From NCBI RefSeq assembly GCF_001573155.1, contig NZ_JRWG01000009.1:1-64000 (forward strand): a stretch of 64,000 nt of DNA. The letters are read 5' to 3'. Position numbers and translations under genes: made by a program. The notes beneath the pieces were generated by a model. It was given only the letters and a program-made list of their open reading frames with translations. It did no database searches and was not told where the DNA came from. Each line of letters starts with the position of its first letter. Within the stretch, counting starts at the first letter, position 1. This DNA comes from Aequorivita aquimaris (GTDB lineage Bacteria; Bacteroidota; Bacteroidia; Flavobacteriales; Flavobacteriaceae). Of the stretch, positions 53,508 to 63,083 are shown piece by piece.

Positions 53508-54386
53508 ATGAACATTGCCATTTTATCGCGTGGGGAAGCGCTTTATTCCACCCAAAGTCTTTTAAAAGCTGGCGAAGCGCGCAACCACACCATGGAGGTT
53601 TTGGATCCTTCCTATTGCAACCTCGCCGTGGAAAACGGAAAAGCCGTCCTCTATTTTCAAAATGAATTGGTGGACGATCTGCACGCCGTCATTCCCAGAA
53701 TTGGTGCTTCCAATACCTATTTCGGGACCAATGTAGTCCGCCATTTTGAGGCGATGGGCGTTTTTAGCGCGGTTTCTTCCGAAGGAATTAGCAATAGCCG
53801 CGACAAATGGACCTGCTTTCAAATTTTGGCAAAACATCAAATTCCCGTGCCACGCACAATATATGCTTCATTTTTTGAATTTGAGGAACAATTGAAAACC
53901 TTTAACGGCAAGCCAATAATCATCAAACTTTTGGAAGGCACACACGGCGAAGGCGTTATTCTTACCGAAAGCCCGCAGAATGCCTTGGCAACGATTGAAA
54001 CCTTAAATGCCGCTGGCGTTAAATTTCTGCTACAGGAATATATTGAGGAAGCCAACGGCGCCGACGTTCGTGCCATTGTTGTTGATGGCGTTGTGGTTGC
54101 GGCGATGAAACGCAAATGCAAGCTTGGCGATTTCCGCAGTAATTTGCATCGTGGCGGCACTTCGGAAATGATTTCGCTCTCTTCCGCAGAGGAAAAAATT
54201 GCCATAAAAGCAGCAAAAGCTATGAATTTGGGCTTTTGCGGGGTTGATATTCTACAATCCAAAAACGGGCCGTTGGTTTTGGAAATTAACAGCACGCCTG
54301 GATTGGAAGGCATTGAGAATACCTCGGGAAAAAATGTTTCGAAAAGCGTAATTGGGTTTATTGAGCGGAATAAAAAGTCGCAGTAG
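53508..54386 (+). CDS. RimK-family ATP-grasp ligase (copy 1)
   Basis: 292 residues. The pre-ATP-grasp part (residues 1-95) has [23 protein letters not shown]-grasp motifs are [15 protein letters not shown] (Lys140 binds ATP), [31 protein letters not shown] and the metal-binding VLEINSTPGLEGIE. RimK in E. coli adds glutamates to the C terminus of ribosomal protein S6; in some bacteria relatives make poly-glutamate or modify other targets. A second RimK gene lies at 55003-55875 and a RimB-type protease between them. Specific S6 activity is inference. Confidence 0.9.
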   Translation: MNIAILSRGEALYSTQSLLKAGEARNHTMEVLDPSYCNLAVENGKAVLYFQNELVDDLHAVIPRIGASNTYFGTNVVRHFEAMGVFSAVSSEGISNSRDKWTCFQILAKHQIPVPRTIYASFFEFEEQLKTFNGKPIIIKLLEGTHGEGVILTESPQNALATIETLNAAGVKFLLQEYIEEANGADVRAIVVDGVVVAAMKRKCKLGDFRSNLHRGGTSEMISLSSAEEKIAIKAAKAMNLGFCGVDILQSKNGPLVLEINSTPGLEGIENTSGKNVSKSVIGFIERNKKSQ

Positions 54387-54580: not shown

Positions 54581-55006
54581 TTGAAAAGAAACATCGGCAG
54601 AATAGACAAGGCAGATTTTCCATTGCTGAACCTCTTCGATATTGAAGTGAAAATTGACACGGGCGCCTACACTTCTTCCATACATTGCAAAAACATGAAA
54701 GTAGAGGATAACTATCTGAAATGCAATTTTTTGGACGAAGAGCATCCCAGCTACCACGAAAAGGAAATCATTTTTGACGAATATGACGTAAAAGTGGTGA
54801 AAAGCAGCAATGGCCAATCCGAAGCGCGATATAGAATTAAAACGGAAATTGTTCTTTTTGGAAAAACACATCCCATTTATTTAACATTGAGCGATAGAGA
54901 GGAAATGCGTTTTCCCGTACTTTTGGGAAGAAACTTTTTGAGCAATAAATATATGGTGGATATTAACAAAACCAACCTTTCCTTCAAACTAAAAAACAAA
55001 AAATGA
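54581..55006 (+). CDS. RimK-associated zinc/aspartyl-type protease (RimB-like)
   Basis: 141 residues from TTG 54581 ([20 protein letters not shown]); no ATG gives the conserved N terminus. The retropepsin-like motif is DTGAYTSS (residues 26-33), with SIHCKNMKV after it, and [20 protein letters not shown] near the C terminus is the family's second block. Such proteins ('ATP-dependent zinc protease', RimB) are usually encoded beside rimK and are thought to trim or control the RimK product. It overlaps the next rimK copy by 4 bases (ATGA), so the two are translationally coupled. Confidence 0.85.
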
Positions 55007-55875
55007 ACATCAAAATATTATCGGCAAACAGCCATTTATATTCCACCCAACGTCTTGTGGAAGCTGCAAAAAAAAGAAAGCACGACGTTGAAGTTATAAA
55101 TCATGCCAAGTGCGATATCGTAATAGAAAAGAAAAACCCCGTTATTTATTACAAAGGCCACAAACTAGACCACACCGATGCGGTAATCCCACGTATTGGG
55201 GCGTCTGTAACTTTTTACGGAACCGCGGTAGTGCGACAGTTTGAAATGATGCGTGTTTTCACAACTACGGAAAGTCAAGCATTGGTACGCTCGCGCGATA
55301 AACTGCGAAGTTTGCAGGTACTTTCCCGCGCTGGATTGGGGTTACCGAAAACCGTTTTTACCAATTATTCCAAGAACGTAAAGGAAATCGTGGACCAAGC
55401 CGGCGGTGCGCCCGTAATAATCAAACTTTTGGAAGGAACACAGGGCATTGGCGTAATCTTGGCCGAAACCCGAAAAGCTGCCGAATCCGTAATTGAAGCA
55501 TTTAATAATCTTCAGGCGCGGGTTATTGTGCAAGAATTTATAAAAGAAGCCGGAGGCGCGGACATTCGTGCATTTATTGTGGACGGACAGGTAGTTGGTG
55601 CAATGAAACGGCAGGGAAAGGAAGGCGAATTTCGAAGCAATTTGCATCGCGGCGGAACCGCAACCGTTATAAAACTTACCGATGAGGAAGAAACCGCCGC
55701 CCTGAAGGCAGCAAAAGCCATGGGCCTTGGAATCGCTGGGGTTGATATGTTGCAATCGGCACGTGGGCCGTTGATTTTGGAAGTGAATTCATCTCCCGGT
55801 TTGGAAGGAATTGAACAAGCCACAGGCAAGGATATCGCAAACTCAATCATAAAATATATAGAACGCAACGTATAA
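55003..55875 (+). CDS. rimK: RimK-family ATP-grasp ligase (copy 2)
   Basis: 290 residues. It has the same domain order as copy 1, with roughly half of the residues in common by eye: [73 protein letters not shown] and [13 protein letters not shown]. It differs from copy 1 mostly in the N-terminal 60 residues and in the acceptor-binding loop. Coupling to the RimB-like gene upstream and the aspartoacylase-like gene 2 bases downstream makes this the more probable S6-modifying enzyme, hence the symbol. Confidence 0.9.
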
Positions 55876-55877
55876 CT

Positions 55878-56879
55878 ATGGCCAAAAAGGAAGAACGTGA
55901 TATTGTAATTTTAAATGAACGGATTGCGCTGGGGGAAAGCCGTACAGTTGATTTTAGCATTGCGAAACTTTACACTTCCACCAAGGTTGAAATCCCAATA
56001 ATCATTGAACGCTCCAAAATCCCCGGACCTACGGTTTTAATAACAGCCGCCATTCACGGAGACGAAATAAACGGAGTGGAAATTGTGCGCCAGCTCATTG
56101 CTCGAAAATTGAACAAGCCCAAACGCGGCACTATAATTTGTATTCCAATTCTCAACGTTTTTGGGTTTTTAAATGGCGACCGTTCTTTCCCCGATGGACG
56201 GGACTTGAACAGGGTTTTTCCGGGTACCAAAACGGGTTCGTTGGCAAGCCGTGTTGCCTATCATTTCACCAAAAAGGTTTTGCCGCACGCCGATTATTGT
56301 CTTGATTTTCACACCGGTGGTGCCAGCCGCTTCAATGCAGCACAGATTCGCATAAAACCGGGCGATGAAAAATTGCTGGAGCTCGCAAAAGTGTTCAACG
56401 CTCCCTTCACGGTCTTTTCAAATACCATTGAAAAATCGTATCGAAATACCTGCCATAAAATGGGCATTCCAGTTTTGCTTTTTGAAGGCGGAAAAAGCCG
56501 GGAAAGCAACAAACATATTGCAAAGGAAGGCGTTGATGGCATCTTGCGGGTACTGGCTCATTTGGACATGTTGGGTAAAAGACACGTAGCTCCCGAACCA
56601 AATGCCAAAACTGTTATTATTGAAAAAAGTAAATGGATACGCGCATACCGAAGCGGGTTGCTGCACGTAAAAATTGACTGCAACAAGCACGTGGAAAAAG
56701 GTGAATTTTTGGCAACAATCACAGATCCATATGGAAAAATGCGGTTTAAGGTTACTTCGCCTAACGAAGGCTACATAATTAACGTGAACCAATCGCCAAT
56801 AGTAAACCAAGGAGATGCAATTTTTCATATTTCAACAGTAAATACGGCAAACACCGAAGACGAAGAGATGGAGGATTAA
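55878..56879 (+). CDS. Succinylglutamate desuccinylase/aspartoacylase family protein
   Basis: 333 residues. The M14-like zinc site is visible: His60 and Glu63 in AIHGDEINGVEIV, and His145 in CLDFHTGG; Asp109/Asn111/Arg112 lie in GRDLNRVFPG. The last 90 residues form an extra domain (GLLHVKIDCNKHVEKGEFLA, TITDPYGKMRFKVTSPNEGY) of lipoyl-like shape that occurs in the longer family members. The chemistry is hydrolysis of an amide at a Glu/Asp-like substrate. In an operon with RimK it could remove glutamates or process the ligase product; this is inference. Confidence 0.88.
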   Translation: MAKKEERDIVILNERIALGESRTVDFSIAKLYTSTKVEIPIIIERSKIPGPTVLITAAIHGDEINGVEIVRQLIARKLNKPKRGTIICIPILNVFGFLNGDRSFPDGRDLNRVFPGTKTGSLASRVAYHFTKKVLPHADYCLDFHTGGASRFNAAQIRIKPGDEKLLELAKVFNAPFTVFSNTIEKSYRNTCHKMGIPVLLFEGGKSRESNKHIAKEGVDGILRVLAHLDMLGKRHVAPEPNAKTVIIEKSKWIRAYRSGLLHVKIDCNKHVEKGEFLATITDPYGKMRFKVTSPNEGYIINVNQSPIVNQGDAIFHISTVNTANTEDEEMED

Positions 56880-58188: not shown

Positions 58189-58797
58189 CTATTCAGTTTC
58201 TTTTTTCGGAAATGCTTTTTTGTTGAAAATAAGCAGCAAAATCACTCCTATGCTTATTGAAGAATCTGCAACGTTAAAAACAGGGTCAAAAAACGTAAAA
58301 TACTCCCCGCCCCAAAAGGGAACCCACTCTGGCAAAGTGCCGCCATATAGTGGAAAATAAAGCATGTCAACCACTTTGCCGTGGAATAAAGTTCCGTAGC
58401 CGCCGTCTTCTGGAAATAAAGTAGCTACTTGGTGATGGCTATCATTGAAAATAATACCGTAAAAAACAGAATCGATAATATTGCCCAAAGCACCCGCAAA
58501 AATCAATGCAACGCAAAAAATGAGGATTTTGGGCATGTTCTTTCTCACGGAATCCCACAGCCAATAACCTATTCCAGCAATGGCAACAATCCTGAAAAGG
58601 GTCAAGAAAAGTTTACCGTATTCACCCGGAATTTTTGCGCCCCAGGCCATGCCTTCATTCTCAACAAACAAAATCCGGAACCAATCAAACACGCGTATTT
58701 CTTCGCCTAAAGCAAAGTGCGTTTTGATATAAAACTTAGAAATCTGATCTATCAATAGAATCAGTACAATTATAATAGTGGCTTTTTTTAGGCTCAT
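58189..58797 (-). CDS. lspA: Lipoprotein signal peptidase (signal peptidase II)
   Basis: 202 residues with four membrane segments. Conserved motifs are LIDQISKFYIK at the N terminus, LFVENEGMAWGAKI, GALGNIIDSVFYG with the first catalytic Asp, and YFTFFDPVFNVADSSISIGV with the second Asp. It removes the signal peptide of lipid-modified prolipoproteins, several of which are encoded in this window. A stretch of about 30 residues between the third and fourth segments is longer than in E. coli, as usual in Bacteroidota. Confidence 0.95.
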   Translation of the reverse strand: MSLKKATIIIVLILLIDQISKFYIKTHFALGEEIRVFDWFRILFVENEGMAWGAKIPGEYGKLFLTLFRIVAIAGIGYWLWDSVRKNMPKILIFCVALIFAGALGNIIDSVFYGIIFNDSHHQVATLFPEDGGYGTLFHGKVVDMLYFPLYGGTLPEWVPFWGGEYFTFFDPVFNVADSSISIGVILLLIFNKKAFPKKETE

Positions 58798-59048: not shown

Positions 59049-59432
59049 TTATTTCTGCATATTTTTTGCCTCTATGCTCAAAGTAGCGTGCGGCACAAGT
59101 TTTAAACGTTCTTTATTGATAAGTTTTCCCGTTACGCGACAAACCCCATAAGTTTTGTTTTCAATACGCACCAATGCGTTTTTTAGGTCGCGGATAAACT
59201 TTTCCTGACGAATGGCCAACTGCGAATTTGCTTCTTTGCTCATCACCTCGCTGCCTTCGTCAAAAGCCTTAAAGGTAGGCGAAGTATCGTCGGTGCCATT
59301 GTTGCTGTCGTTTTTATAGGAACTTTGTATCAGTTCCAACTGTTCGGTTGCCTTTTTAATTTTGTCGTTCAAAAGTGCTCTAAATTCTTCCAGTTCGGCA
59401 TCTGAATATCTGGTTCTTTCTGTCTCTGTCAT
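59049..59432 (-). CDS. TraR/DksA-family protein lacking most zinc-finger cysteines
   Basis: 127 residues. The coiled-coil (SDAELEEFRALLNDKIKKAT, ELIQSSYKNDSNNGTDDTSP) and the helical part (EGSEVMSKEANSQLAIRQEK) match the DksA/TraR fold. The C-terminal region starts TYGVCRVTGKLINKERLKLV, where DksA would have Cys-x2-Cys ... Cys-x2-Cys; only one Cys remains. Such C-poor forms exist in other bacteria and still bind RNA polymerase. The region HATLSIEAK closes it. It lies 3 bases after the ileS stop, so it shares that transcript. Confidence 0.88.
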   Translation of the reverse strand: MTETERTRYSDAELEEFRALLNDKIKKATEQLELIQSSYKNDSNNGTDDTSPTFKAFDEGSEVMSKEANSQLAIRQEKFIRDLKNALVRIENKTYGVCRVTGKLINKERLKLVPHATLSIEAKNMQK

Positions 59433-59435
59433 AAT

Positions 59436-62400
59436 CTAATGTTTTTTAATGCTTATACGTGTTTCAATATCGTCAAATGCAATTTCCGTTCCCTCTTCAA
59501 TTTTAGGCTGAAACTGCAAAACCTCGGTTAATGTCTCTTCATTTATATACTTCAGGTTTTGGGTTACCGCATCCGTTAGTTTTTCGTTCTCCTCAAGGGC
59601 GACCTCAATTCTGTCGGTCACTTCAAAACCACTGTCTTTTCTAAGGTTTTGAATTCTGTTTACCAATTCCCTGGCTATTCCTTCATTCCGCAACTCGGGG
59701 GTTATGGTAACATCCAGTGCCACAGTAACTCCGTTTGCGTTTGCAACCAACCAGCCCTCAATATCCTGCGAACTGATGATTACGTCAGCGAGCGCCAAAA
59801 TAGTACTTTTTTCGTTAATAAAAACTGATATTTGCCCGTCTTTTTCCAAAGTTGCAATTTGCTGTTGGTCAAAGGCTGAAATGGCAGCCGCCACGGCTTT
59901 CATATCTTTTCCAAAACGTGGGCCCAGCGCCTTAAAATCTGGCTTTATCTGTTTTACCAGCATGCCCGAGCCTTCGTCTATCAGTTCTATTTCCTTTACG
60001 TTTACTTCGCTTTTAATCAATTCTGAAACCGCTAAAATTTCTTCCTTTTCAGAATCTTCCAAAACCGGAATCATTATTTTTTGGAGCGGTTGGCGTACTT
60101 TTATTTTCTCTTTCTGTCGTAACGAAAGCACCAGCGACGATATTGTCTGCGCCTTCTGCATCTTGTGCTCCAACTTTTTATCGATGAACGATGCGTCCGC
60201 TTTTGGGAAGTCGGTTAAATGTACCGATTCCATACCTTCTTTTGAAGTGCCGGCCGTCAAATCCTTATAGAGTCTATCCATAAAGAAGGGAGCTACGGGA
60301 GCGCCCAATTTTGCAACGGTTTCCAAACAGGTGTAAAGGGTTTGGTAGGCCGAAATTTTATCGTCATTATAGCTGCCTTTCCAATATCTTCTTCGGCTTA
60401 ATCGCACAAACCAGTTGCTCAAGTTTTCCTGTACAAATTCTGAAATGGCACGTGTAGCCTTGGTTGGCTCGTAATCTGCGTAATACTCGTCCACTTTTTG
60501 GATGAGCGTGTGCAATTCTGATAATATCCAGCGGTCAATCTCCGGGCGTTTTTCCAGCGGAAGATCTTTTTCAATATACTCAAAATTATCGAGATTGGCG
60601 TAAAGACTGAAGAAACTGTACGTATTGTAAAGTGTTCCGAAGAATTTATTGCGCACTTCCGAAATGCCGTCCTGGTCAAACTTTAAGTTGTCCCAAGGAT
60701 TTGCGTTGCTGATCATATACCAGCGCGTGGCATCGGGACCGAAAACGTCCAAAGTTTCAAAAGGATCCACGGCATTGCCGAGACGCTTGCTCATTTTCTG
60801 GCCGTTTTTGTCCAAAACAAGTCCGTTTGAAACTACGTTTTTATAGGCAACATCGTCAAAAATCATGGTGGCGATTGCATGCAGGGTGTAAAACCAGCCA
60901 CGGGTTTGGTCCACGCCTTCCGCAATAAAATCTGCCTTTCTCCACGTATTCTCTACCTTTTCCTTATTTTCGAAAGGATAGTGCCATTGTGCATAGGGCA
61001 TGCTTCCGCTGTCGAACCATACATCTATCAAATCGGCTTCGCGCTTCATGGGTTTTCCGCTTGGGGAAACCAGGATTATTTCGTCAACAATATTTTTATG
61101 TAGGTCAACCTTTGCATAGTTTTCTTCGGAAAAATCGCCGGGTTTGAAATTTTCGAAAATGTTTTTCGGCATCAATCCCGCGCCTACGGATTTGTCCATT
61201 TCCGTCATTAATTCTTCCACCGAACCTATGATTATTTCTTCCTTGCCATCCTCCGTTCTCCAAATGGGCAACGGAATTCCCCAATAGCGGGAGCGGGAAA
61301 GGTTCCAATCGTTTGCGTTTGCAAGCCAGTTGCCAAAACGGCCTTCGCCAGTAGCTTTTGGTTTCCAGTTTATTTCTTTGTTCAATTCGAACATTCTATC
61401 GCGGAATTCGGTCACTTTTATAAACCACGAATCCAGCGGATAATATAGAATAGGCTTATCGGTACGCCAGCAGTTTGGATAGCTGTGCAAATATTTTTCA
61501 ACTTTGAAGGCCTTGTTTTCGGTCTTCAATTTTATTGCGATTTCAACATCTACCGATTTTTCGGGCACTTCGGCATCATCGTAATACTCGTTCTTTACAT
61601 ATTTACCTGCAAGCTCCTTCATCTCCGGACGGAATTTTCCTTGCAAATCCACAAGTGGAACCAGATTTCCATTTTCGTCTTTTACCAACATTGGCGGAAT
61701 TTCTGGAGTTGCTTCCTTGGCAACCTTGGCATCATCGGCACCAAAAGTGGGCGCGGTGTGTACGATTCCCGTTCCGTCTTCCGTAGTAACGAAATCGCCC
61801 GCAATTACTCTGAAAGCGTTTTCAGGATTGTCGTGCGGCTTTGCATAATCCAAAAGCTGTTCGTATCGAATTCCGACTAAATCGGCACCTTTAAATTCTT
61901 TCGCAATAAAATAGGGGATTACCTTATCGCCCTGTTTGTATGATTCGAGGATTTCCTCGTTTGGTTTTTCCTCATAATTCTTCGCGAACTGGTTTGCAAC
62001 CAAATTTTTTGCGAGAATTACATTTATGGGCTGGAAAGTATATTGGTTAAAAGTTTTCACCAAAACATAATCAATCTTGGGGCCCACGGTCAATGCGGTA
62101 TTGCTGGGAAGCGTCCACGGCGTAGTGGTCCAAGCGAGGAACCAAATGTTGTTTGATTCTTCGCCAAGGAAATCGGGCAAGGTTTCGGCCATTGCCTTAA
62201 ATTGTGCCACCACCGTAGTATCGGTAATATCTTGATAGGTTCCCGGCTGGTTGAGTTCGTGCGAGCTCAAGCCCGTTCCCGCTTTTGGGGAGTAGGGTTG
62301 AATGGTGTAGCCTTTGTAAATTAAGTCTTTGTTGTAGATTTCTTTCAAAAGCCACCAAACGGTTTCCATATATTTTGGCTCGTAGGTAACGTAGGGGTCT

Positions 62401-62840
62401 TCCATATCAACCCAATACCCGGCGCGCTCGGTAAGGTTGTTCCAAACGTCTGTGTAGCGCATTACCGCTTTTTTGCAGGCTGCGTTGTATTCTTCCACCG
62501 AAATCTTTGTCCCGATGTCTTCCTTGGTGATGCCGAGTTCTTTTTCAACGCCCAATTCTATGGGCAAGCCGTGCGTGTCCCAGCCTGCCTTCCGGTCAAC
62601 TTTAAAGCCTTTTTGGGTTTTGTAACGGCAGAAAATATCTTTTATGGCGCGCGCCATAACGTGATGTATCCCGGGAAGACCGTTGGCAGATGGTGGCCCT
62701 TCAAAAAACACAAATGGCTCCGCTCCTTCGCGAATGGAAATACTCTGCTCAAAGATGTTTTCTTCTTTCCAAAAATTGAGTACTTCTTCCGCCAGTTTAG
62801 GGAGGTCCAACCCTTTGTATTCTTTAAATTTTTTGCTCAT
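59436..62840 (-). CDS. ileS: Isoleucyl-tRNA synthetase with permuted HxGH signature
   Basis: 1134 residues from ATG 62840 (MSKKFKEYKGLDLPKLAEEV); an earlier in-frame ATG at 62879 adds 13 unlikely residues. The class I signature lies at residues 53-62 as NGLPGIHHVM, so HxGH has become GxHH (GIHH, 57-60). The second signature is KMSKR at 60783-60797. The editing domain (AWTTTPWTLPSNTALTVGPK, TEDGTGIVHTAPTFGADDAK) and the anticodon-binding C-terminal domain follow; the long C-terminal extension of about 250 residues is as in the large, eukaryote-like IleRS2 type. It charges tRNA-Ile. Confidence 0.95.
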   Translation of the reverse strand: MSKKFKEYKGLDLPKLAEEVLNFWKEENIFEQSISIREGAEPFVFFEGPPSANGLPGIHHVMARAIKDIFCRYKTQKGFKVDRKAGWDTHGLPIELGVEKELGITKEDIGTKISVEEYNAACKKAVMRYTDVWNNLTERAGYWVDMEDPYVTYEPKYMETVWWLLKEIYNKDLIYKGYTIQPYSPKAGTGLSSHELNQPGTYQDITDTTVVAQFKAMAETLPDFLGEESNNIWFLAWTTTPWTLPSNTALTVGPKIDYVLVKTFNQYTFQPINVILAKNLVANQFAKNYEEKPNEEILESYKQGDKVIPYFIAKEFKGADLVGIRYEQLLDYAKPHDNPENAFRVIAGDFVTTEDGTGIVHTAPTFGADDAKVAKEATPEIPPMLVKDENGNLVPLVDLQGKFRPEMKELAGKYVKNEYYDDAEVPEKSVDVEIAIKLKTENKAFKVEKYLHSYPNCWRTDKPILYYPLDSWFIKVTEFRDRMFELNKEINWKPKATGEGRFGNWLANANDWNLSRSRYWGIPLPIWRTEDGKEEIIIGSVEELMTEMDKSVGAGLMPKNIFENFKPGDFSEENYAKVDLHKNIVDEIILVSPSGKPMKREADLIDVWFDSGSMPYAQWHYPFENKEKVENTWRKADFIAEGVDQTRGWFYTLHAIATMIFDDVAYKNVVSNGLVLDKNGQKMSKRLGNAVDPFETLDVFGPDATRWYMISNANPWDNLKFDQDGISEVRNKFFGTLYNTYSFFSLYANLDNFEYIEKDLPLEKRPEIDRWILSELHTLIQKVDEYYADYEPTKATRAISEFVQENLSNWFVRLSRRRYWKGSYNDDKISAYQTLYTCLETVAKLGAPVAPFFMDRLYKDLTAGTSKEGMESVHLTDFPKADASFIDKKLEHKMQKAQTISSLVLSLRQKEKIKVRQPLQKIMIPVLEDSEKEEILAVSELIKSEVNVKEIELIDEGSGMLVKQIKPDFKALGPRFGKDMKAVAAAISAFDQQQIATLEKDGQISVFINEKSTILALADVIISSQDIEGWLVANANGVTVALDVTITPELRNEGIARELVNRIQNLRKDSGFEVTDRIEVALEENEKLTDAVTQNLKYINEETLTEVLQFQPKIEEGTEIAFDDIETRISIKKH

Positions 62841-62874: not shown

Positions 62875-63083
62875 AACAATTTTGAAGAAATGCATCATGG
62901 TTTTGCGAAAGAGAAAAGAACCGATATTGTATGAAATAATAATACGCTTAAATGAAAAATCCAGCAGCTTTTTCAACTTTTTTGAAGGGTTTTTTCCCAA
63001 AAGAGGTTCATAATTTTGAATACTCCATTTTTTCCCCCAAATTTGAAGTCTTTTTAAAGCTTTCTCTATAATACAGTTAACTA

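Follow-up and report, generated by a model that had tools for sequence, protein, structure and literature searches.

A type 2 isoleucyl-tRNA synthetase with a natural GIHH motif at the class I HXGH site in a Flavobacteriaceae-like bacterium

The window (the whole stretch of 64,000 nucleotides that was analysed) carries an ileS gene on the minus strand at positions 59436 to 62840. The gene is an open frame of 1134 codons read from an ATG at 62840 and encodes an isoleucyl-tRNA synthetase (IleRS) of 1134 residues. In a mechanical list of open reading frames (ORFs) the frame opens with a TTG at 62879 instead; we judge the ATG to be the likelier start. The isoleucine--tRNA ligase model TIGR00392 matched the protein with 990 bits against a cut-off of 621.4, which identifies it as an IleRS. 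Pfam analysis gave matches to PF00133, PF08264 and PF19302, and the protein is comprised of a class I core, an anticodon-binding domain and a C-terminal DUF5915. Its best relatives in the PDB were chains of the type 2 enzyme (IleRS2) of Priestia megaterium, with the top score going to 8c8w.

Directly downstream of ileS lies a TraR/DksA-like gene (59049..59432, minus strand), and an lspA-like (lipoprotein signal peptidase) gene occupies 58189..58797 on the same strand; both are ORFs that we name by position only. Three other Bacteroidota records have the annotated gene order ileS-TraR/DksA-lspA. They are labelled as plasmids of Parabacteroides, Bacteroides and Riemerella (L303, L304 and L305), but ileS has housekeeping genes around it there, and these "plasmids" seem to be chromosomal fragments that were wrongly labelled or split off. 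Elsewhere in the window, two similar ORFs stand close together on the plus strand (53508-54386 and 55003-55875) and are followed by an ORF at 55878-56879. We take the pair to be RimK/ATP-grasp-like and the third to be succinylglutamate desuccinylase-like.

The class I signature motif of this IleRS is rearranged. Codons 62672-62661 on the minus strand read GGG ATA CAT CAC and encode G-I-H-H at residues 57-60, within the context PPSANGLPGIHHVMARAIKD; GWDTHGLPIE begins at residue 86. In the HMMER alignments listed, GIHH stands without gaps opposite the HVGH of P. megaterium IleRS2 (8c8u, 8c8v and 8c9d), opposite the HxGH site of Thermus thermophilus IleRS (1ile) and opposite the GVHH of 8c8w, which its authors list as a GVHH mutant of P. 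megaterium IleRS2. The original prediction, that GIHH at 62661-62672 (minus strand) takes the place of HxGH, thus proved exact to the base, and the motif is real. With G, I, H and H at the HXGH site, the enzyme falls within the G/AXHH IleRS2 group (G or A, X, H, H at that site). Further inspection of the protein revealed the second class I signature, KMSKR (residues 682-686, 60783..60797, minus strand), together with TTTPWTLPSN at residue 238 and GTGIVH at residue 356. Judged from the sequence, these elements are in place as marks of a normal enzyme.

IleRS enzymes occur as two types, and the marks that tell them apart were taken from passages of PMC4861432. The window IleRS contains HYPFE (residues 620-624, 60969..60983, minus strand), which those passages name as a eukaryote-like/IleRS2 signature. 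E. coli IleRS1, used for comparison, has HIGH, NKIL and an SSL before KMSKS. The IleRS1 marks that were looked for in the window IleRS (Tyr-59, NKIL and SSL near KMSKS) were absent: a Ser stands where E. coli IleRS1 has the Tyr (Tyr-59) of PPY, and the one SSL, at residue 902, lies far past KMSKR and hence is not the IleRS1 mark. There are no cysteines in the last 250 residues, against seven in E. coli IleRS1, and so there is no C-terminal Cys4 zinc cluster. By HYPFE, the IleRS1 marks and the Cys4 cluster, the protein belongs to the IleRS2, or eukaryote-like, enzymes, and on these residues we identify the ileS product as IleRS2. Identity as an IleRS1 was rejected, the enzyme being without NKIL, without C-terminal cysteines and without HXGH. 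Among the named relatives described below (best 80 of 578 stretches), HYPFE was found in 66 of 80, HFPFE in 6 and neither in 8; that HYPFE is not universal among them was counted against our preferred reading.

A profile search of the organism's own genome (3.15 Mb, 65 contigs, rated 99.97% complete) returned one place over the IleRS cut-off and nine weak ones. One gene behind the weak places is that of valyl-tRNA synthetase (ValRS; 907.8 bits, TIGR00422), and two further genes were taken for LeuRS-like and MetRS-like from their motif context. The ValRS, LeuRS-like and MetRS-like genes keep the HxGH form (HMGH, HVGH and HIGH), and IleRS is thus the only one of the four genes with the swap. Since a single IleRS was found, the GIHH enzyme presumably serves the cell's needs and performs its isoleucine charging, an activity implied by the single copy.

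In order to determine how common the motif is, the ileS genes of 59 relatives' genomes and 148 genomes drawn from the phylum were read (204 distinct genomes, own included, with 47 family codes, f1-f47). Judged by the named neighbours described below, the phylum is Bacteroidota; in the sense of GTDB it may cover lineages that other schemes separate. GXHH was present in 203 of the 204 genomes, own included (160 GIHH, 42 GVHH and 1 GMHH); in the sole unreadable genome, G019, a contig ends within the gene, ahead of the motif. A count of GxHH among Bacteroidota IleRS had been proposed with the original prediction, and it came to every readable one in the sample (203/203 genomes). With the own genome left out, G-x-H-H stood in 202 of 203, the exception being the truncated gene of G019, so the motif is not a chance change of a single genome. 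Copies were counted only in the 148 phylum genomes, each of which gave one match at E <= 1e-150. Two of the 204 genomes, G036 and G051, have an extra short ileS gene end at a contig edge (L098, 96 bases, and L099, 69 bases, respectively) that ends before the motif. These ends match the query with 66% identity over 32 residues and 70% over 23, respectively, and may stem from a second copy or from mixed assembly. In two same-family genomes, the loci L213 (G114) and L214 (G159) gave a match to the IleRS model at E <= 1e-150 that begins only near position 260. Their open frames have 1177 and 1241 codons and their motifs are GIHH and GVHH, respectively; an insertion in the first half of the gene is possible.

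A second scan covered named genomes, using a query without the motif region and the patterns DTHGLP[VI]E and L[VA]WTTTPW, so that the motif was unable to steer the selection. The best 80 of 578 confirmed stretches were kept, only loci with Bacteroidota names being used; the organism names of all 80 are ones that we take to be Bacteroidota. GXHH was found in 79 of these best 80 of 578 (76 GIHH and 3 GVHH), and the unreadable one, L270, begins downstream of the motif. The closest among the matches listed (best 80 of 578) was from an uncultured Flavobacteriaceae bacterium, with 78% identity. The genome sample and the named set overlap in species, and their counts are kept separate.

For a quick protein tree (LG+G4, SH-aLRT only, motif columns blanked) 48 rows were picked, of which L036 and L038 (<800 residues) were dropped, leaving 46. 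In it the window IleRS groups with Mesonia and Flavobacterium, and a branch with SH-aLRT of 98 separates the 41 Bacteroidota rows from the others. The E. coli branch is very long and 10 rows are of odd letter composition, and the tree was relied on only for placing the window among Flavobacteriaceae. Five genes were read outside the phylum (L298-L302): Acetoanaerobium (GIHH), Nonomuraea (GVHH), Sutcliffiella (HAGH), Paenibacillus (HIGH) and the E. coli IleRS1 (HIGH). These agree with the published picture, in which both motif forms occur among IleRS2. GXHH looks like an inherited state of Bacteroidota and not an event in the window organism, and the simplest reading is that it was already there at the base of the phylum.

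The motif itself has been described. Brkic et al. (2023) named G/AXHH; according to the main text of PMC10485003, 86 of their 379 sequences carry it, and these are exclusively IleRS2, with no IleRS1 among them. The same text links it to mupirocin hyper-resistance, with Ki in the mM range, which matches the connection to resistant IleRS2 made in the original prediction. In its Table 1, the Ki of the Deinococcus radiodurans enzyme (DrIleRS2), naturally ALHH, fell from 6600 uM to 8.1 uM when the motif was made HVGH, an 823-fold drop, and GVHH mutants raised the Ki of TtIleRS2 from 0.20 to 35 uM and that of PmIleRS2 from 1.08 to 460 uM (PMC10485003). Because the GVHH mutants of canonical enzymes reach 35 and 460 uM, and not mM, the level of resistance is set by more than the motif. 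Structures reported there place the third His where the first His would be, and modelling has it clash with mupirocin (PMC10485003). By analogy with these IleRS2, the third-position His of the window enzyme may substitute for the first His of HXGH in catalysis; it would be able to do so because the IleRS2 active site keeps the helix tip shifted off the adenine. The third His would likewise clash with mupirocin, and we infer that the window IleRS is mupirocin hyper-resistant.

The GXHH-mupirocin principle having been published in 2023, the original finding is correct, already known and explained. Within the literature searched, the sole element not found in print was the phylum-wide GXHH count. 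The main text of PMC10485003 does not contain the words Bacteroidota, Bacteroidetes or Flavobacteri, and its sequence set may include such organisms. Among the papers listed by searches on IleRS, mupirocin, GXHH and Bacteroides/Bacteroidetes, no statement that Bacteroidota IleRS carries GXHH was found, which is not proof of absence. A table in PMC10835994 has an entry, under mupirocin, for the isoleucyl-tRNA synthetase from a member of the Flavobacteriaceae, and the motif is not mentioned in that passage.

A broken signature motif could mean a decayed, non-functional IleRS. Class I enzymes in general show strong conservation of both the first His and the Gly of HXGH, and several of them become about 1000-fold slower when the first His is lost, as stated in the main text of PMC10485003. 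However, the frame is open, it encodes the only IleRS found in a genome rated 99.97% complete, and G-x-H-H stands in all 203 readable genomes. With a single intact copy and the same motif in all readable sampled relatives, we rejected decay, to which we give next to no credence; the enzyme is very probably functional, and the earlier view of a working natural variant fits both PMC10485003 and the phylum survey. A recently acquired MupA-like resistance gene seems just as far-fetched. The MupA and MupB models do match the protein, at 732.3 and 766.7 bits, yet these scores are far below the 1900-bit NCBIfam exception cut-off and do not make it a member of either family. Moreover, it is the sole ileS found in the genome, its gene order with TraR/DksA and lspA is common to three other Bacteroidota records, and its neighbours in the protein tree are Mesonia and Flavobacterium. 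Recent acquisition was rejected on the single intact copy, the conserved gene order and the presence of the same motif in every readable relative of the sample.

We are highly confident that the gene encodes a housekeeping IleRS2 with a natural GXHH class I motif, belonging to a Flavobacteriaceae-like bacterium; its mupirocin resistance and the catalytic part played by its third His are predicted from other IleRS2. Compatible with this reading is a proposal about cause, namely that entrenchment keeps the motif in place and that mupirocin hyper-resistance is a by-product. We find it credible, if a little short of an even chance. GXHH occurs throughout the phylum sample, including a one-contig genome of about 0.3 Mb (G050, L096, GIHH); going by its size alone, the organism may live much like a symbiont and would then be unlikely to meet mupirocin. 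Against it, natural reversion has been described in Deinococcus-Thermus and antibiotic selection proposed (main text of PMC10485003). In its wider form, which we advance tentatively and would not yet call probable, GXHH is fixed across GTDB Bacteroidota, even in the genome of about 0.3 Mb, along with widespread loss of cysteine pairs of the structural zinc-binding kind. Intrinsic mupirocin hyper-resistance of the phylum would then be a legacy of its entrenched active site, a by-product of history, and not the result of current antibiotic selection. A departure from one of the most highly conserved enzyme motifs seems to be the norm for a whole phylum, which predicts intrinsic mupirocin resistance there, and the phylum-wide count makes it easier to test whether the motif reflects selected resistance or entrenched history.

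The cysteine pairs are one respect in which the window enzyme departs from its best-studied relatives. The CxxC...CxxC cysteines of IleRS2 presumably bind zinc. The four such cysteines of the Bacillota and Actinomycetota IleRS2 rows correspond to S, A, C and T in the window enzyme. Of 252 Bacteroidota rows, only 14 retain the full set of four; a row was included if it had 800 residues or more (80 named, the best 80 of 578, plus 172 of the 203 matched loci of the genome sample). Their loss in most Bacteroidota rows suggests the loss of a structural zinc site. Because the window IleRS lacks most of the zinc-type cysteine pairs seen in other IleRS2, findings on the Priestia and Deinococcus enzymes do not carry over to it perfectly.

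Among known systems, the G/AXHH IleRS2 of Streptomyces griseus and D. radiodurans, as described in the main text of PMC10485003, share with the window enzyme the swap of motif positions 1 and 3 (G/A first, His third), the IleRS2 type and the housekeeping role. The IleRS2 of P. megaterium (8C8U and 8C8V, wild type, HVGH; 8C8W, GVHH mutant) gave the best PDB matches and aligned without gaps across the motif. Unlike the window IleRS, its natural motif is canonical, and its CxxC pairs are CPSC and CWRC where the window has S-P-K-A and C-W-R-T; P. megaterium also has an IleRS1 (PMC10485003). Staphylococcal MupA is IleRS2-like and mupirocin resistant, and MupA records are listed at about 36% identity to the window IleRS, but MupA is plasmid-borne, unlike the window gene. 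MupB was compared with the window IleRS by model score only (766.7 bits against the 1900-bit cut-off).
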